From JBFLXN01 sp040755715 [NCBI: Candidatus Edwardsbacteria bacterium] (GTDB taxonomy: Bacteria > Edwardsbacteria > AC1 > JBFLXN01), in assembly GCA_040755715.1 (NCBI GenBank), contig JBFLXN010000098.1, forward strand, positions 1 to 10,301: a DNA stretch of 10,301 nt, given 5' to 3'. Below, one piece after another: positions 1 to 10,301 of the stretch. The translations under genes and the position numbers were made by a program. Positions within the stretch are counted from its first letter, which is position 1. The number at the start of each line of letters is the position of its first letter. The notes beneath the pieces are model-generated. The model did not search any database. It had not been told where the DNA came from and saw only the letters and a list, made by a program, of their open reading frames with translations.

Positions 1-12
1 CAGCACTTTCAC

Positions 13-28
13 AGGGGCTATCGCCCCT
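13..28. repeat. Short GC-rich inverted repeat
   Basis: Arms AGGGGC (13-18) and GCCCCT (23-28) pair perfectly around a TATC loop. This is the first of four inverted repeats packed into bases 13-166. No T-run follows, so it does not look like a terminator. It may belong to a larger palindromic element continuing left of the window. Confidence 0.6.
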
Positions 29-33
29 ATGAC

Positions 34-66
34 ATTCCGAAACTTGCCACTGGCAACTTTCGGAAT
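34..66. repeat. Nested 15-bp imperfect palindrome
   Basis: The outer arms ATTCCGAAA (34-42) and TTTCGGAAT (58-66) are perfect complements. The inner arms TTGCCA (44-49) and TGGCAA (51-56) are also perfect, centred on C50. The only break is a C/C mismatch at 43/57. The near absence of a loop means it could extrude as a cruciform in DNA. No function is evident. Confidence 0.75.
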
Positions 67-74
67 TGTAACCC

Positions 75-102
75 CTTAGGGGGTGAGGCTTCACCCCCTA
101 AG
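75..102. repeat. 12-bp perfect hairpin with 4-nt loop
   Basis: Arms CTTAGGGGGTGA (75-86) and TCACCCCCTAAG (91-102) are exact reverse complements around a GGCT loop. It is GC-rich and stable, but followed by a C-run rather than a T-run on +, and not followed by a T-run on - either. A terminator reading is therefore weak. It adjoins the preceding palindrome with 8 nt between them. Confidence 0.75.
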
Positions 103-111
103 ACCCCCCGC

Positions 112-166
112 AGTGGTCTGTATCTTCAGGCCAACTTAATAGCGTTAATTTATGTTACAGACCACT
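112..166. repeat. Inverted repeat, 11-bp arms, 33-nt loop
   Basis: Arms AGTGGTCTGTA (112-122) and TACAGACCACT (156-166) are exact reverse complements separated by an AT-rich 33-nt interior. The right arm ends where recognisable methyltransferase coding sequence begins (165-168), so this repeat sits at the breakpoint of the truncated gene. It could be the end of an inserted palindromic element or a rearrangement scar. No transposase is present in the window. Confidence 0.7.
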
Positions 167-1466: not shown

Positions 1467-1659
1467 AGATAAAAAGGAAAATATAGAATTCCCTGTGACA
1501 GGAACCATTGCAGAATGCCCTAAATGTAAGAGAAAGATGCTTGTGGAAAGGGCATTATTTGGAGTGAATCACACATTTGGTCTCCACATCACCTGCTGGG
1601 ACTGTCTGGATGAAGAGAGTAAAGAAAGAGCTAAGAAAAGATATAAGTTGCAGGAATGA
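1450..1659 (+). CDS. Small four-cysteine (putative zinc-ribbon) protein, unrecognised
   Basis: A 69-residue product. Two CxxC knuckles, C23-P-K-C26 and C49-W-D-C52, are 22 residues apart, as in zinc-ribbon or rubredoxin-like folds that bind Zn or Fe. The tail is strongly charged (ESKERAKKRYK). I do not recognise the family. Starts at GTG 1447, ATG 1450 and ATG 1456 are all possible and none has a clear Shine-Dalgarno site; all overlap the end of the THEP1-like gene, so translation is probably coupled. The retained CxxC pairs, the coupling to both neighbours and the correct-strand position argue that it is real rather than chance. It could assist the flavoprotein or NTPase, but that is only context. 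Confidence 0.65.
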   Translation: MKMDGEDKKENIEFPVTGTIAECPKCKRKMLVERALFGVNHTFGLHITCWDCLDEESKERAKKRYKLQE

Positions 1660-1670
1660 AGTGCGAATTA

Positions 1671-1678
1671 AAGGAGGT
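1671..1678 (+). promoter_or_regulatory. Strong RBS that fixes the DUF3160 gene start
   Basis: AAGGAGGT is a near-perfect Shine-Dalgarno sequence 7 nt before ATG 1686. It argues against the in-frame ATG at 1656, which overlaps the previous stop and would add ten residues (MKCELKEVLK) in front of the signal peptide. Confidence 0.85.
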
Positions 1679-1685
1679 TTTGAAG

Positions 1686-3917
1686 ATGTTCACCAAAAAG
1701 TTCAGCATAGTTCTTCTGATGGTAATCTGGTTGTTTTTCAGTCACCAGAGGTCTTTTAGTGAGATGGTAAGTTTAAGTCGCTTAGCCAGAAAAAATCCGG
1801 AATTTATCAGATTCTATCAGCCAACACAGATAATAGTAGAGGCGAAAATTCCTTCCTACCAGTTGCCTTTAGACCTGTCAAAAACAGAAAATTTCACTCA
1901 AGTCTCAAATCTATTGGGAATGAGTTCCGAAGCCCAATCACTCTTGAGCCAAAATGGTTTCGTGGTGGTTAAATCTAATGCTCAAGATGACTTTGTCCAA
2001 TCGTTCAAAGATTTGAAACACAAAGGATTGCCCATCTTCATCACCACTGACGCCTTGCTCCATCTCTATCATATTCAGTTTGATGAGACTCTGCGAGATA
2101 TTGAAGAGCGGGAGTTTTTTAACGACCTAATTTCAATCACCCAAGTGATGCTAAAAAAATCAGATGAACAATACCACCAATACACCGGCGAACTTAAAGA
2201 AGCCGCCAAAAGAAATGTTGCCTTCTTCAGCGTTGCCTTGAAGTTATTAGCGCCTGAGGAAGATATTCCTACTTATATTCAAGATTGGGTTAAACAGGAA
2301 TTCGCCAGCATAGGGACTCATCGGGGATTCGCTAAAAGTCCCATCTTTAAATATGAGGAGGATTACTCTCAATATGTGCCGAGAGGACATTATACCCGAA
2401 GTGAAAATTTGAAAAAATATTTCCGGGCAATGATGTGGTATGGAAGAATGAGTTTTATTTTGAAGGGCGGCGAGCCCTTTGGTCAATTTGCACCTTGCCT
2501 CATTTCTAAAACAGATGCTAAAATCCAGACGATTCAGGCAATCCTAATCACCATTGCTCTGGAGAAACTCAAGAGCAACGAAAGAGGCTTGGGTGATATT
2601 TGGGATAGAGTCTATTCAGTCACCGCCTATTATGTAGGCTTGGCTGATGATTTGACATTTCATCATTACAGAGAAGCAGTGACCAAAACTTTTGGTTACT
2701 CATTTGAGATTTCAAACTTAACTAATGAGAATAAACTATTTAATTTGAAATTAGAGTTGGCCAAATTAAGTGCCCCAGCGATTTACAGTGGAACAGGAGG
2801 AAGTGGCATAGACTTGGTTAAGGAGGGATTTAAACTCACACCGGCTCAATTGGATAGTATCTTGGACAAAACCAAAGGAATGCGGTTCATTGGACAAAGA
2901 TATGTTCCTGATAGTTACTTGTTCTCAAGATTGGTTGCCCCAAATGTAGGTAGGCTCTTAGGAAAAGAATGTTTTACTACCGTATCCATACCGGGCTTTG
3001 GTGAAGTCAGAGGATTCCCTCGTGGTTTAGATGTAATGGCAGTTTTAGGTTCAGTAAGGGCGATGGAAATTCTTTCGGAACTGGGGGACAATAATTACGA
3101 AAATTATGCTCACCAATTTGAAATGCTACAAAAAGAATTTTCTAAATTCTCTAAGAAAGAATGGAATAGAAATCTTTACTGGTCCTGGCTTTATACTCTT
3201 AAATCTATACTGGTTACATATAGTCAAGGCTATCAAACCTTCATCACTAACAAAGCCTGGCAGGACAAGACTCTTGCTACTTGTCTGGGTTCCTGGTCAG
3301 CCTTAAGACACGATACGATTCTTTACGCCAAGCAAAGTTATACCCCACTGCTTATTACAGCGGTACCACCTAAACCAAAACCAATTTCCCAGGGCTATGT
3401 AGAGCCAGCCCCTGAATTTTATGCACGATTGTTAACCTTGACTCAGATGACTACTCAAGGGCTTGAGGAAATGCAGGTGTTAAACGAAATAGCCAAGAAT
3501 AGGCTTTTAAGTTTAGAAAGAATTTTAAAGGCACTATTAGAAATTTCTTTGAAAGAATTGAGAAATGAAGAACTCTTACCTGCAGATTATGATTTCATTG
3601 CCAATTTTGGTGAGAAATTGGAAGGGGCGGTAATGGGAGTAGAGAACAAAGGGATGAAGACAACTATGATTGCTGACGTTCACACTGACCAGAACACAAA
3701 AAAAGTTTTGGAAGAAGGGACAGGTTATGTAAATCTGTTGGTAGTGGCTTACCTGCAACCAGATAATACTACAGTAATTGGTGTTGGGCCAGTCTTTTCT
3801 TATTACGAATTTAAGTGGCCGATGGAAGATAGATTAACAGATGAAAAGTGGCAAGAAGTGCTTCGCCAAAACATCACCCTTAATTTACCTGAATGGTCAA
3901 AGAGTTTCATAAGATAG
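1686..3917 (+). CDS. DUF3160-domain protein, secreted
   Basis: The 743-residue protein begins with a short basic segment (FTKK) and a hydrophobic core (residues 6-18), then a polar stretch ending HQRSFS, a type I signal peptide probably cleaved near residue 25. No lipobox cysteine is seen. The mature part carries the DUF3160 hallmark around LPIFITTDALLHLYHIQFDETL (about residues 115-136), with D122, H126, H129 and D133 as conserved polar positions. A later YEF..PMEDRLTDEKW segment near the C-terminus fits the same family. The family occurs in diverse bacteria and has no established reaction; a cell-surface or periplasmic location is expected. It lies 26 bases after the small cysteine protein, so it may be the last gene of that cluster, but its strong RBS suggests independent high translation. 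No obvious terminator follows. Confidence 0.85.
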   Translation: MFTKKFSIVLLMVIWLFFSHQRSFSEMVSLSRLARKNPEFIRFYQPTQIIVEAKIPSYQLPLDLSKTENFTQVSNLLGMSSEAQSLLSQNGFVVVKSNAQDDFVQSFKDLKHKGLPIFITTDALLHLYHIQFDETLRDIEEREFFNDLISITQVMLKKSDEQYHQYTGELKEAAKRNVAFFSVALKLLAPEEDIPTYIQDWVKQEFASIGTHRGFAKSPIFKYEEDYSQYVPRGHYTRSENLKKYFRAMMWYGRMSFILKGGEPFGQFAPCLISKTDAKIQTIQAILITIALEKLKSNERGLGDIWDRVYSVTAYYVGLADDLTFHHYREAVTKTFGYSFEISNLTNENKLFNLKLELAKLSAPAIYSGTGGSGIDLVKEGFKLTPAQLDSILDKTKGMRFIGQRYVPDSYLFSRLVAPNVGRLLGKECFTTVSIPGFGEVRGFPRGLDVMAVLGSVRAMEILSELGDNNYENYAHQFEMLQKEFSKFSKKEWNRNLYWSWLYTLKSILVTYSQGYQTFITNKAWQDKTLATCLGSWSALRHDTILYAKQSYTPLLITAVPPKPKPISQGYVEPAPEFYARLLTLTQMTTQGLEEMQVLNEIAKNRLLSLERILKALLEISLKELRNEELLPADYDFIANFGEKLEGAVMGVENKGMKTTMIADVHTDQNTKKVLEEGTGYVNLLVVAYLQPDNTTVIGVGPVFSYYEFKWPMEDRLTDEKWQEVLRQNITLNLPEWSKSFIR

Positions 3918-5265: not shown

Positions 5266-6240
5266 ATGCTTACTGAACTTTTAAATCAATTTGCTCAGCA
5301 AGAAATGGCTAAGCCCCGTCGGCCTAAGGAAAAGCATTGGCCCTCAGATGCGGGGAAATGTCTCAGAGCCTTGGTCTATCTCTGGCGAGGCACTGAAGGG
5401 AAAAAACCTGATAACCGAACCTTTTTTGTTTTTGAAGACGGTCACCTTCATCATCAAACCATCCGTAATCAACTGCGTCGGGCTGGCCTTGAATTTACAA
5501 TGGAAGAAGCCCCCATCTCTGACCCCAAAATTCCTCTGTCAGGTAAATTAGACGCCGTCATCCGACTGGGCGGAAAATATTATGTCCTGGAAATAAAATC
5601 AATCAACCGTTTCTCCTTTGAAGAAGTGACTCATCAGGGGCCAATACCTTCTCATGTCATTCAATTGCAGTTATATCTACATTATGTCCAAAATCTCTTT
5701 CGCCTAAACACTCAGTCGGGTATTTTGCTTTACAAATGCAAAGACACCAGCCGCTTCTGGGAGTCCCTCATTGAATATGATGAAACGCAGGTCAAGACCT
5801 TCTTTGACACGGTGGCAGAGGTCAAAGAACATCTTGGAAAAAATACACTCCCGCCACGCCCTTATAGAGTTACGGATTGGGAGTGTCAATATTGTGACTA
5901 TTCCGAAATTTGCTGGGAAGGTATGGAAAAAGAATTAGAAAATCGTTTGAAAGAAATAAGAGAAGAAGAATTAGTGAAATTGATTGGTGAACTCATCTTT
6001 GTGCGGGACCAAAAAAAGCAAGTTGAGAAGGAAGAGAAACGGCTCACCGAATTGATAAAATCAATTATGGTGCAAAAAGAAATCAAGTCAGGCAAAATCG
6101 GTAGTTATTTTGTGGAATTAAAAGAGCAGAGTAGAAAGAATCTTGACAGAGAACTTCTAATTGAGAAATTAGGAGACTTGGAACCATTCTATAAGGTAGA
6201 TACCTATTCAACATTACAGATAAAAGAAAAAGACCTGTAA
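5266..6240 (+). CDS. PD-(D/E)XK nuclease with Cas4/AddB-like four-cysteine cluster
   Basis: The 324-residue protein has the RecB/Cas4-type nuclease pattern. GKLD has D96, followed by E109-I-K111 as the ExK of the active site, then Q133-L-Q-L-Y137, the QxxxY motif IV. H60-H63 in EDGHLHHQ may be the conserved N-terminal metal-binding histidine region. Four cysteines frame the domain, C32 (GKCLRALVYLW) and C206-x2-C209-x5-C215 near its end, the arrangement that holds a 4Fe-4S cluster in Cas4, AddB and eukaryotic Dna2. After the domain comes a charged, probably coiled-coil segment (about 220-275) and a short C-terminal tail. It should be a DNA exonuclease acting on ends or single strands. mutS2 begins 3 nt after its stop, so the two are surely co-transcribed. 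No cas1, cas2 or helicase partner is nearby, so a CRISPR role is not supported. Confidence 0.85.
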   Translation: MLTELLNQFAQQEMAKPRRPKEKHWPSDAGKCLRALVYLWRGTEGKKPDNRTFFVFEDGHLHHQTIRNQLRRAGLEFTMEEAPISDPKIPLSGKLDAVIRLGGKYYVLEIKSINRFSFEEVTHQGPIPSHVIQLQLYLHYVQNLFRLNTQSGILLYKCKDTSRFWESLIEYDETQVKTFFDTVAEVKEHLGKNTLPPRPYRVTDWECQYCDYSEICWEGMEKELENRLKEIREEELVKLIGELIFVRDQKKQVEKEEKRLTELIKSIMVQKEIKSGKIGSYFVELKEQSRKNLDRELLIEKLGDLEPFYKVDTYSTLQIKEKDL

Positions 6241-6243
6241 TCA

Positions 6244-8697
6244 GTGAACGACCATACCCTTCAAGTCTTAGAATTTGATAAGATTTTAGCTATACTGGCT
6301 GAACGCACCAGTTCACCCTTAGGTAAAGAACTGGCTCACCAGTCAAGACCCTCAACAGACTTTGAGACCGTTTCTCAGAGACTAAAAGAAGTTACCGAAC
6401 TGAAAAAATTTATTTCGGCTGGGGAAAATTTTTCTTTAACTGGATTAAAGGACATTCGCTCAAGTTTAGAAAAATTAAAAATAGAAGGGACTATCCTTGA
6501 ACCTCGGGAATTGTTAGATATTGCCGAAACCTTGGGCACAGCCCGCCGAATTAAGAAAATTTTTTCCGCCAAACTGATGGCGGACAGGTCCGCCACAGCA
6601 GAAAAATTTCCCTTACTCTACAAACTGACCAATCCCTTGGTTGTTTTTAAGGAAATTGAAGAAAAGATTGAACAAACTGTTGATTCCTCAGGCGAAATTT
6701 TAGATAAAGCCTCAAGAAAATTATCGCAATTAAGAAGAGAGAAGGAGCGAATCCGAGAGAAGATTCAAGAGAAATTAACCGCCGTCATTAATTCTCCCAA
6801 AAACAAAAAGATTATTCAAGAACCAATTATCACCCTCCGTGATGAACGCTATTGCATTCCGGTGAAAGCCGAAGAACGGACAAAAATAAAAGGGATAGTT
6901 CATGAAACTTCACAATCGGGCGCCACTGTCTTTATTGAGCCCTTGACCACGGTAGAGTTGAACAATTCTCTCCGTCAGTGTGGACTTGAAGAAAAACGAG
7001 AAATTCAGAAAATCTTAAATGAAATTTGCCAACTGGTGCGCTTTAATCTCGCCGAAATCAGCCAGAATTTGAACATCCTGGCTGAATTTGACCTCATCCT
7101 TGCCAAGACCCGTCTGAGCCTTGATTGGAAGTGTGTTGAACCACAATTGAATACACAAGGATATATTTCCCTAAAGAACGGAAGACATCCTTTCTTAATT
7201 CAAGAAAAGGAACCGAGAGCGGACTATCAAAATAGCAAAGTAGCCGCCAAGAAGGTTATTCCGCTTAACCTTCAGATTGGTCAAGATTTTACTACGCTTA
7301 TGATTACAGGGCCCAATACTGGGGGGAAGACCGTAGCTTTGAAAACCATAGGAATTCTTGTCCTGATGACCCAAACCGGAATGCACATCCCGGCAGGAGA
7401 AGATTCTGAGATTTCCCTCTTCCCTCAAATCTTTGCTGATATTGGCGATGAACAGTCAATTGAAGAATCGCTTTCTACCTTCTCTTCCCATTTACGGAAT
7501 GTCAAAGATGTTTTAAAAGAAGCAAATTCTCAAAGTTTAGTTTTACTTGATGAAATTGGTGTGGGCACAGACCCTGAAGAAGGACAAGCTCTGGCCATGG
7601 CCATTTTAGAAGAATTGACTTTGAGACAATGCAGAGTGATTGCTACTACTCACTACGGCACCTTGAAGGTTTTTGCTCATTCAAAACCGGGTATGCAGAA
7701 TGCAGCCATGGAATTTGACCGCACAACCCTACATCCGACCTATCGCTTGATGATGGGTGTGCCAGGTGGAAGCTATGCCTTAGAAATTGCCCAGAGACTG
7801 GGAATTCCTATAGATGTTTTAGAAAAGGCGAAAGGCTTTGTCTCCTCTGAAGCCATTCATTTAGACGAACTAATTGCTAAATTAGAGGAGAGTATACAAG
7901 AAGGGGAAAAGACTCGCTGGGAAGTAAATCAGAAATCAGAAGAATTAACCACCTTGATTTCTCAATATGAAAAGAGAATGGAAACTATTAGGGAAGAAGA
8001 AAAGAGAATTAAGGAAAGGGCAAAAGAAGAAGGAAGGAAAATCTTAGAAGAGACAAAGAGGGTTTCCCAAAGAGCCATTGAAGAAATTAAAAAACAACCA
8101 CCAAGCCATCCAACTGTCAGAAAGATAGAAAGGGTTTTGAGTGAAGAGATAAGAAAATTGGTAAACAGTGAAAAACTAAAAGTGCCCAAAAAGCCACTCA
8201 AAGATTTAAAAATCGGAGAGAAACTTTGGCTAGAGTCAGTCAAACGCGAAGGAGTACTTCTTACCCTCCCAAACTCGCAAGGAAAAGTGAAGGTGCAAAT
8301 CGGCTCACTGCGTTTGGACTTATCAGCAGAAGAGCTCTCTCGTCAATCAGTAAGACCACGGGCATTCAGCCCCCAGATTTTTCAGAGACCTTTGGAGAAA
8401 GTAGAAGAAGATGAATTAGAAACCAGTTCAGTCAATTATGAAAATGAAGGTTCATTCTCACCCGAATTACATTTGATTGGGAAGAGGGTGAAGGAATCTG
8501 TAGAGATTTTGGATAAATATTTGGACGATGCTCAATTGAAGGGTATTTCCTTTATAAAGATTGTTCATGGTAAAGGGAAGGGTATTTTGCGGGCAGTAGT
8601 CAAGGAGGCCTTAGCTAAAGACGAGAGAGTCAAATCATTCCGCCTCGGAGAGTGGAATGAAGGTGGGAGCGGCGTGACGGTGGTGGAGTTGAAATGA
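6244..8697 (+). CDS. mutS2: MutS2 ATPase with Smr domain
   Basis: The 817-residue length is close to other MutS2 proteins. It starts at GTG 6244, 3 nt after the nuclease stop and without a clear RBS, implying coupled translation. A helical core and clamp region (1-330) precedes the ATPase: Walker A GPNTGGKT at 356-363, signature SLSTFSSH at 409-416 and Walker B LLDE ending D436-E437. A long charged coiled coil follows (about 540-650), then a KOW/SH3-like segment (GEKLWLESVKREGVLLTLP...), and a C-terminal Smr domain from about 742 with the HGKGKG motif. MutS2 lacks the MutS mismatch-recognition domain; it has been tied to suppression of recombination and, in Bacillus, to rescue of collided ribosomes. 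Two oddities: the Smr LDxR/LDLxG motif reads LHLIG (742-746), and a palindrome at 6578-6595 is read in frame. Confidence 0.95.
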   Translation: MNDHTLQVLEFDKILAILAERTSSPLGKELAHQSRPSTDFETVSQRLKEVTELKKFISAGENFSLTGLKDIRSSLEKLKIEGTILEPRELLDIAETLGTARRIKKIFSAKLMADRSATAEKFPLLYKLTNPLVVFKEIEEKIEQTVDSSGEILDKASRKLSQLRREKERIREKIQEKLTAVINSPKNKKIIQEPIITLRDERYCIPVKAEERTKIKGIVHETSQSGATVFIEPLTTVELNNSLRQCGLEEKREIQKILNEICQLVRFNLAEISQNLNILAEFDLILAKTRLSLDWKCVEPQLNTQGYISLKNGRHPFLIQEKEPRADYQNSKVAAKKVIPLNLQIGQDFTTLMITGPNTGGKTVALKTIGILVLMTQTGMHIPAGEDSEISLFPQIFADIGDEQSIEESLSTFSSHLRNVKDVLKEANSQSLVLLDEIGVGTDPEEGQALAMAILEELTLRQCRVIATTHYGTLKVFAHSKPGMQNAAMEFDRTTLHPTYRLMMGVPGGSYALEIAQRLGIPIDVLEKAKGFVSSEAIHLDELIAKLEESIQEGEKTRWEVNQKSEELTTLISQYEKRMETIREEEKRIKERAKEEGRKILEETKRVSQRAIEEIKKQPPSHPTVRKIERVLSEEIRKLVNSEKLKVPKKPLKDLKIGEKLWLESVKREGVLLTLPNSQGKVKVQIGSLRLDLSAEELSRQSVRPRAFSPQIFQRPLEKVEEDELETSSVNYENEGSFSPELHLIGKRVKESVEILDKYLDDAQLKGISFIKIVHGKGKGILRAVVKEALAKDERVKSFRLGEWNEGGSGVTVVELK
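6578..6595. repeat. 18-bp in-frame palindrome inside mutS2
   Basis: TGGCGGAC (6578-6585) and GTCCGCCA (6588-6595) are exact reverse complements separated by AG. It is markedly GC-rich against its AT-rich surroundings and encodes MADRSAT (residues 112-118), between KKIFSAK and EKFPLLYKL. It may be a palindromic element inserted without breaking the reading frame. Confidence 0.65.
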
Positions 8698-8739: not shown

Positions 8740-10218
8740 ATGGATAAAAAATACTGGCAGATAAATACCGAAAAATTAGCCGATGATATTAGAGAGGTCG
8801 CTCGTCAAGTTAAAAGTCAATTAAAAAAAGAAGAAGACCTCAAAATGCGTGTAGAACCTCTACTTCAGAACGCATTTAAAAAAATTGGAGTAGACATTGA
8901 CATTGTGGGATATGAGAAAACATCCACAAGTTACAGAGGTAGAGCAGATGCAGTTTATGGGTATTTGACAATAGAATACAAGTTTCCTGGCAAATTATCT
9001 CAGAAAACAGAAATAAAAAAAGCTGTAGAACAGCTTCAGCGGTATTTGAGTGAACAATCAGCACAGTTCGGACAGCAAAAAGAGGACTTTTTAGAAAAAG
9101 CGGTTGGTGCTGCTCTTGATGGTGAAAATATAATGTTTGTTAGATTTACAAAAGCTCCAACAATTCTACAGACACCGGTTCCTATTGAAATGCCGCAAAT
9201 AGCCCTTTTCCCGCAAGTGCAGGTTGGACAAGGATTTCATATCCAAGGGCCATATTCTGTTAATAAATCAAGTATAAGCAGTCTATTGATATATGTGAGA
9301 GCGTCTCGCCGTCGTCCTTTGACAGCAAAAGACCTCGCTACAGTCTTTTCCCCCACCTGTTCAACAACGCAACAAGCAATATCTGAACTGTATTCTGAAA
9401 TTATGAGAGCACAGCGAAGGCAGGTTCCGTCCCGGATAAAAACATTTTTTGATGAGTGGAACAGAATTTTTGGAATTGTCTATGGCCAGGAACTTGAAAA
9501 GGCAGAAAAATCAGCAGAAAGGACGGCTAAATTATATCAAATGCCCGGAGGCTCTCGTCTCCAACAGCTCTTATTCTCAATTCACACTTTTTATGCTTTT
9601 TTGATGAAACTAATTGCTATTGAACTCATTTCTTCGCAAAGAAAAAGCACCGTGGAATCGTTTGTCAAAGGGCTATCTTCCTTAGGTGATGATGAATTAA
9701 GAGATAAATTGGTTCATTTGGAAAGTGGAGCAGATTTTATTCAACAGGGAATTGAAAATTTTTTGGAAGCAGATTTCTTCTCTTGGTATCTTGATGGATG
9801 GACCCCACAAATTGCAAATATTTTCCGTGATATTGTCAGAGCACTTTCCGATTTTGAACCTGTAACACCGATTTTAGAACCCGAATGGACAAAGGACCTG
9901 TTACAAAATCTTTACGAAGTGATTGTCCCACAGGAATTGAGACACGACTTGGGCGAATATTATACACCTGACTGGTTAGCTGGATATGTAGTTGACAAAA
10001 CTGGATATATGGGAGAGATTGGTTGTCGTTTTCTTGACCCTGCCTGCGGCTCCGGAACATTTTTAGTCCAGGCGATTAACCGGGTAATAAAAAATGTTGG
10101 GAAACAAAAAGGACTTGATGTCAAAGAAATTGGTCAGCACATACTCGCCAATATTGTTGGTTTTGATATAAATCGGGGCTTCACCGATTTCGGTGCAAAT
10201 TTTAAAGGAAGACGCTGA
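8740..10218 (+). CDS. Type IIG-like restriction-modification protein, truncated after methylase motif I
   Basis: The frame encodes 492 residues from ATG 8740, with GGAAAG at 8729-8734 as RBS. The N-terminal part looks like a restriction nuclease: E39, then GRAD with D70 and E79-Y-K81, and later EQLQRYL. A long helical linker (about 180-400) leads to a gamma-type N6-adenine methylase start: LGEYYTPDWLA (about 403-413) is motif X, and LDPACGSGTFL (432-442) is the SAM-binding motif I. VGFDIN follows as the segment after motif I. The family should continue with an LAV...AK.N helix, the catalytic NPPY motif IV and a target-recognition domain; none of these appears. Similarity stops after R479 (base 10176), where a palindromic repeat starts, and a stop follows 13 codons on. 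No frame in the last 100 bases restores the family pattern. Cleavage and methylation are both probably lost unless the gene resumes outside the window. Confidence 0.8.
   Translation: MDKKYWQINTEKLADDIREVARQVKSQLKKEEDLKMRVEPLLQNAFKKIGVDIDIVGYEKTSTSYRGRADAVYGYLTIEYKFPGKLSQKTEIKKAVEQLQRYLSEQSAQFGQQKEDFLEKAVGAALDGENIMFVRFTKAPTILQTPVPIEMPQIALFPQVQVGQGFHIQGPYSVNKSSISSLLIYVRASRRRPLTAKDLATVFSPTCSTTQQAISELYSEIMRAQRRQVPSRIKTFFDEWNRIFGIVYGQELEKAEKSAERTAKLYQMPGGSRLQQLLFSIHTFYAFLMKLIAIELISSQRKSTVESFVKGLSSLGDDELRDKLVHLESGADFIQQGIENFLEADFFSWYLDGWTPQIANIFRDIVRALSDFEPVTPILEPEWTKDLLQNLYEVIVPQELRHDLGEYYTPDWLAGYVVDKTGYMGEIGCRFLDPACGSGTFLVQAINRVIKNVGKQKGLDVKEIGQHILANIVGFDINRGFTDFGANFKGRR
10178..10199. repeat. Palindromic direct repeat, copy 1
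   Basis: This 22-nt unit, GCTTCACCGATTTCGGTGCAAA, contains the dyad CACCGA-TT-TCGGTG. It begins two bases after the last codon that looks like methylase. It is matched by a second copy exactly 60 bases further on, differing at two positions. Confidence 0.75.
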
Positions 10219-10301
10219 AATATCAATATGTTTGTTAGCTTTTCCGATTTCGGTGCAAACTGGGCAAATGCAGATCTTAGGAACTTGTGATTTAACAACC
10301 C
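10219..10301. other. Repeat-bearing DNA at the window edge
   Basis: Apart from the second repeat copy I see no gene or restored methylase frame. On the minus strand a frame from the window edge to a stop at 10134-10136 is open and reads KFAPKS or FAPKSE at each repeat, 20 residues apart. This could be chance or the end of a repeat protein. Confidence 0.4.
10238..10259. repeat. Palindromic direct repeat, copy 2
   Basis: GCTTTTCCGATTTCGGTGCAAA repeats copy 1 with TT in place of CA, which shortens the dyad to CCGA-TT-TCGG. The 38-nt sequence between the copies is not itself repeated. The remaining 42 bases to the window edge show no third copy. Confidence 0.75.

Follow-up and report, generated by a model that had tools for sequence, protein, structure and literature searches.

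The window analyzed here is a whole stretch of 10,301 nt, the contig JBFLXN010000098.1 of a Candidatus Edwardsbacteria bacterium. Its right end carries the 5' part of an N6 adenine DNA methylase gene, followed by sequence that contains two copies of a 22-nt unit and a short transposase-like reading frame on the opposite strand (Table 1). Among the other genes there are a DUF3160 gene (positions 1656-3917, E 1.2e-203), whose 753-aa product has best relatives in genome_contigs with about 50% identity (51% at best) in many phyla, some of them archaeal, and, in 5266-8697, a PD-(D/E)XK / Cas4-like nuclease gene directly 5' of MutS2, possibly forming a repair pair with it. The best full-length identity of MutS2 is 43%, in one of 147 genomes from the phylum of G017, and 42% in the phylum of G010. 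The left contig end (window 1-166 and 165-311) contains four inverted repeats with arms of 10-16 nt and, directly after them, the C-terminus of a second DNA methylase (PF01555 positions 186-221 of 221, E 7.7e-12), which is also truncated, at structured sequence of another type; no plasmid match for this end was found at E <= 0.1.

Table 1. Features at the right end of the window (L143, L144 and L149 are the related loci described in the text)
Feature	Position	Strand	Details
5' part of N6 adenine DNA methylase gene	8740..10174	+	PF02384; interrupted after ...VGFDIN
Visible end of the putative element, 127 bases	10175..10301	.	outer edge at 10175, begins GGGGCTTCACC; likeness to ISL3-type ends, transposase-like fragment, 127-base length
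Putative terminal repeat, copy 1 (outer)	10178..10199	+	GCTTCACCGATTTCGGTGCAAA; similar pair in L149
Putative subterminal repeat, copy 2	10238..10259	+	GCTTTTCCGATTTCGGTGCAAA; 60 from copy 1
Transposase-like N-terminal fragment (zinc-ribbon start)	10255..10299	-	VVKSQVPKICICPVC; BLOSUM62 match to L144/L143/L149

The methylase gene matches the PF02384 N6_Mtase profile at E 1.1e-6 (profile search) and contains the motif LDPACGSGTF; the term "type IIG-like" is a label taken over from the initial annotation. In 11 of its 13 relatives from viral contigs the homology stops at residue 478 (base 10173), while the matches of the other two, L099 and the contig-truncated L090, are shorter. All 11 relatives continue with Pro (PLAV or PVAV), and their open frames extend another 286-666 residues past residue 478. 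The motif NPPW lies 127-179 residues beyond the match end in 12 of the 13, L090 being the exception. Hence the gene is indeed cut, as had been proposed, and the missing catalytic motif does lie beyond the break in the relatives, although they carry NPPW and not the expected NPPY. In the window the codon after Asn-478 is CGG, where C in position 10174 is compatible with a Pro codon and G in position 10175 is not, so the break is placed at 10174/10175, with foreign sequence starting from 10175. The similarity had originally been described as lost at 10176; the loss is confirmed, and the exact break differs by no more than two bases. The bases immediately before it (10167-10174) are TATAAATC. The methylase has presumably been inactivated by an insertion.

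The two copies of the 22-nt unit are identical in 20 of 22 positions at a spacing of 60, in agreement with the earlier description of a unit recurring with two changes, and none of 2000 shuffled sequences matched this. A degenerate 21-nt pattern of the unit, allowing up to three mismatches, occurs at two places in the window, both of them the copies themselves, compared with a maximum of zero in 200 shuffles. The unit had been called palindromic, which holds for CACCGA-TT-TCGGTG in copy 1 (predicted fold of this copy alone, -6.4 kcal/mol), but the palindrome is short, and only CCGATTTCGG is kept in copy 2. The repeat finder (minimum length 12) listed no inverted pair in the window, and no part of the window matched Rfam at the gathering score, the best hit near the contig end having E 0.83.

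The 16-mers CCGATTTCGGTGCAAA and GCTTCACCGATTTCGGTG were found in six and three loci of viral_contigs, respectively, each time as a single motif with unrelated surroundings in the stretches read. No paired CCGATTTCGG cores within 300 bp occur on the scanned strand of 130 loci. Allowing three mismatches, the unit pattern is present in two of 147 genomes, at a single place each. The two-copy pattern (gap 34-56) is absent from genome_contigs, which would fit a fast-changing end of an insertion sequence (IS) in a lineage with no close sequenced relative among those reached.

The terminal 127 bases as a whole (query 10160-10301) gave no DNA match at E <= 1 among plasmids and phages. Of 30 genomes or records, at least 15 gave weak short DNA matches at E <= 1, as did at least seven of 147 at E <= 0.01 and at least two of 84. 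These matches (best E 0.0046), not each of which was read, are short and involve different parts of the query; they were taken as chance.

Elements with comparable ends were found among ISL3-type transposases. Searching the 147 genomes from the phylum of G017, reached via L025 (candidate division WOR-3), with PF01610 (DDE_Tnp_ISL3) gave 29 places in 19 genomes, and 11 ISL3 loci were scanned for inverted repeats. L143 and L144 were followed because their ends resembled the window. The ends around the L144 and L143 transposases are GCTTCTCCGTATTTTGTCCAA and GCTTCACCGAATTTTGTCCAAC, respectively. The right end of L144, GCTTCTCCGTATTTTGTCCAAA, is identical to window copy 1 in 16 of 22 positions, and GCTTCACCGAATTTTGTCCAAC of L143 in 17; over all four ends of the two loci the identity is 15-17/22, the inverted partner of copy 1 lying off the contig. 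A search with the L143 transposase matched four of the 147 genomes, and L149 was taken up afterwards; its ends agree with copy 1 in 14/22 (the end with paired copies) and 16/22 (the other end). The inverted repeats of L133 and L137 are clear but different (TGGTTCTTCACGGATTTA and TGGCTCTTCCCC..., respectively). Since other places reach 19/22 with copy 1 (1.82 million bases scanned, with several loci fetched for that very motif), the terminal repeat alone is no proof of kinship. One of the better matches, 18/22 (GCTTCACCAATATCGATGTAAA), lies in L144 itself, at 21-42, outside the IS, and exceeds the scores of the IS ends. No relative of the L143 or L149 transposase was seen in viral_contigs. The L143 transposase matched none of 82 genomes in the phylum of G015 (E <= 1e-20), and the L149 transposase none of 391 in the class of G018 (E <= 1e-25), both being empty answers that carry no weight.

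The arrangement of the repeats in L149 (G127:C519) is the same as in the window. At its 5' end a 21-nt terminal repeat occurs twice, in positions 925-945 and 985-1005, that is, 60 bp apart; over 22 nt the pair shows 20/22 identity at +60, as in the window, and again none of 2000 shuffles matched this. The transposase ORF starts at 1066, after a leader, in the same direction as the repeat pair. A second repeat copy beyond the level of shuffles was seen in only one of 10 relative ends (the left end of L149) and in the window. Two elements would thus represent a divergent ISL3-like branch in which one end carries copies of the terminal repeat exactly 60 bp apart. Our literature search found no description of paired subterminal repeats in ISL3, though we do not claim that they are absent from the literature.

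The assignment of the relatives is based on their transposases. The ORFs of L143 and L144 match PF01610 above the Pfam cut-off and NF033550 below its cut-off, and the L149 match covers PF01610 positions 1-123 of 240 (E 1.7e-7). Since L143 scores 58.4 bits against NF033550, where the NCBI cut-off for ISL3 is 180, the relatives look like a divergent ISL3 branch. The core spans of L143, L144 and L149 are about 1.3-1.4 kb. In the ISL3 family the target duplication is 8 bp; L144 has nine bases shared by both flanks, while no shared flank of six or more bases was found for L143 and L149. None of the three transposases is intact (67 + 318 aa in L143, 282 + 146 aa in L149, stops in L144), so no active helper is seen among them.

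The fragment encoded on the minus strand of the window also resembles these transposases. Over its 15 residues the BLOSUM62 scores of VVKSQVPKICICPVC are 61 with L144, 59 with L143 and 56 with L149 (identities 7/15, 7/15 and 8/15, respectively), the aligned starts being VVEPKIPRFCICPDC in L149 and ILRRRVPKTCVCPIC in L144. For comparison, the top score among 204 CxCxxC sites, drawn from 3.36 million residues of translated sequence (the remainder of the window plus loci L001-L132), is 37, and the maximum in 2000 shuffles of the 127 bases is 36. The ORFs of the relatives start with MNRTEIKVVEPKIPRFCICPDCG (L149), MPEQFKIKILRRRVPKTCVCPICG (L144) and MPKEPKIKILKARIPKTCVCPNCG (L143). Among 161 loci, the regular expression PK.C.C[PS].C picked out L143, L144 and the window and nothing else; L149, which has PR, escapes it. 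Moreover, L187, a left-end contig of the genome G125, encodes MSISLKIKWVKSH before its end, resembling VVKSQ of the window. The 42-aa minus-strand frame matched no NCBIfam or Pfam model.

These data bear on two readings put forward in the initial annotation. The first is a short array of repeats separated by unique 38-nt spacers, considered here as CRISPR-like or REP-like; two copies with a short palindromic core would suit it, as would the contig end at 10301, given that a third copy at the same spacing would start at 10298. Yet a transposase-like peptide is encoded after copy 2, the L149 pair sits at the end of a transposase-bearing element, and the two-copy match is missing from genome_contigs, making an array very improbable. 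The second reading is a recombination site able to switch gene halves, considered here as site-specific switching between methylase halves, a form of phase variation. The break does lie inside a methylase gene and the opposite contig end holds another truncated methylase, but no recombinase was found among the 10 window ORFs scanned, an IS end accounts for the 22-mer, and the repeats of the left end are different. We found no evidence in favor of such switching and regard it as equally remote. The third suggestion, an inserted repeat family, was right in kind, as the sequence resembles the end of an ISL3-like mobile element.

The length of the foreign sequence is informative as well. The stretch from 10175 to the contig end at 10301 measures exactly 127 bases. 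Contigs built by a de Bruijn assembler with k = 127 break off k bases beyond the divergence of repeat copies. Among the loci matched by the DUF3160 search, some contig titles contain k127 or k141. In G125, whose contigs break off in copies of a related, ISL3-like element type, five contigs (L168, L178, L184, L190, L192) extend exactly 141 bases beyond the last base that they have in common with another copy, and two (L181, L187) extend 140 bases beyond it; here, for each contig, the same-end copy sharing most was used, while other same-end pairs give 136-139. This genome has 12 places with the pattern, eight of one type; seven of the eight, the measured ones, are at contig ends, and the remaining one, L193, has diverged and lies within a contig. 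The pattern was searched for in seven genomes and matched six, but the reversed control also matched five (nine places), so only rows that were multi-copy, had 0-2 mismatches, or were same-type contig ends were used. Given the distance to the contig end and the G125 precedent, the simplest reading of the 127 bases of the window is that they form the edge of a multi-copy element. An assembly error had been named as what would overturn an insertion; it is relevant in part, as the contig end resembles a break left by k-mer assembly at a repeat, and the inverted join within the last 47 bases, discussed below, could be chimeric. More generally, when a gene stops at a sequence resembling a terminal repeat and the contig runs on for exactly k bases, this is a signature of a mobile element that the assembly did not cross.

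The likeness to ISL3-type ends, the 60-bp pair in L149, the transposase-like peptide and the 127-base distance to the contig end together point to an ISL3-like element end. We estimate at roughly 90% the probability that a multi-copy ISL3-family-like element has transposed into the methylase gene behind codon Asn-478, splitting it, and that 10175-10301 represents one of its ends. Counting against this are the failure of the 127 bases to give a convincing DNA match, the missing profile hit for the 42-aa frame, the +60 copy being present at a single relative end out of 10, and the split or stop-bearing transposases of the relatives. The 22-nt unit would then be the terminal repeat of the element, and copy 2, located 60 bp inside, a subterminal copy, by its position most simply predicted to be a second transposase-binding site. 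The transposase of a relative would bind the terminal repeat, perhaps both of the 60-bp-spaced copies, and move the element into the methylase gene, and an assembler with k = 127 would stop where it met a k-mer common to several copies. With the ISL3 family (PF01610 / NF033550) the element appears to share ends of the type GGGCTTC..CC and the zinc-ribbon start; it differs in that the branch is divergent, judging by the L143 score, and in that the window copy is known from 127 bases alone. Assigned by one end and 15 residues, it is filed as ISL3-like and not as a proven family member. The finding is ordinary bacterial genome biology and is largely explained; the ISL3-like reading accounts for a contig end that might otherwise pass for a novel kind of repeat array.

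The window and L149 share the direct terminal-repeat pair at exactly 60 bp and the type of transposase start, but the L149 transposase points inward from the paired end, while the window fragment runs toward the element edge, and its similarity is gone after CPVC, at copy 2. As the inverted N-terminus is cut at copy 2, the visible part is no plain IS end. At the join (10254-10260) the six bases GTTTGC (minus strand) are common to the transposase codons and copy 2. With the fragment pointing outward and cut in this way, we consider the window copy most likely to be an internally rearranged, non-autonomous (MITE-like) derivative, probably moved by the transposase of a relative. Such a derivative might have both ends from the 5' end, or might come from a deletion joining the transposase N-terminus to the end with paired copies. 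In its most specific version, suggested here only tentatively, the element would be miniature and multi-copy, with a 5' end on either side, each derived from the left end of an ISL3-like IS, and would be spreading in an uncultivated bacterial lineage; it would bear 22-nt transposase sites in pairs, at 60-bp spacing, together with the transposase N-terminus in inverted orientation.

Two other accounts of the inverted fragment were considered. The element could be an ordinary IS, with the fragment arising from an amplification or assembly chimera joined at the GTTTGC microhomology. The inverted orientation of the join, the six bases common across it and the location of the fragment, which by the L149 layout is near the expected transposase start, all suit this account, and multiple displacement amplification is described as forming chimeras (PMC1855051). 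On the other hand, there is no sign that the sample was amplified, and, should the k = 127 reading hold, the 127-mer spanning the join is present in at least two places, so that the join would be repeated and not a single chimeric read; a chimera therefore seems unlikely, though with an appreciable chance. Alternatively, two copies of the element could be nested or adjacent, the end region of one cutting the transposase gene of the other, since on the minus strand the transposase fragment is followed by two copies of the terminal repeat. However, the GGGG edge at 10175 has no counterpart at copy 2, and in L149 a 60-bp pair makes up the layout of a single end, so we regard nested copies as improbable.

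A rearranged derivative of this kind can be compared with the miniature derivatives (MITEs) that this group does contain, such as the one in G126:C284 (L179), a short element with inverted terminal repeats that spans 270 bp from core to core. It is flanked on both sides by TTTTTTTC, within a shared stretch of 12. It retains its ends and a transposase scrap, as the window element would; its scrap is a remnant of the C-terminus, LQVSHYFKEQI*, whereas in the window an inverted N-terminus and a single end are visible. The remnant can be set beside the end of the second L149 ORF, FQITHYLKQQI.
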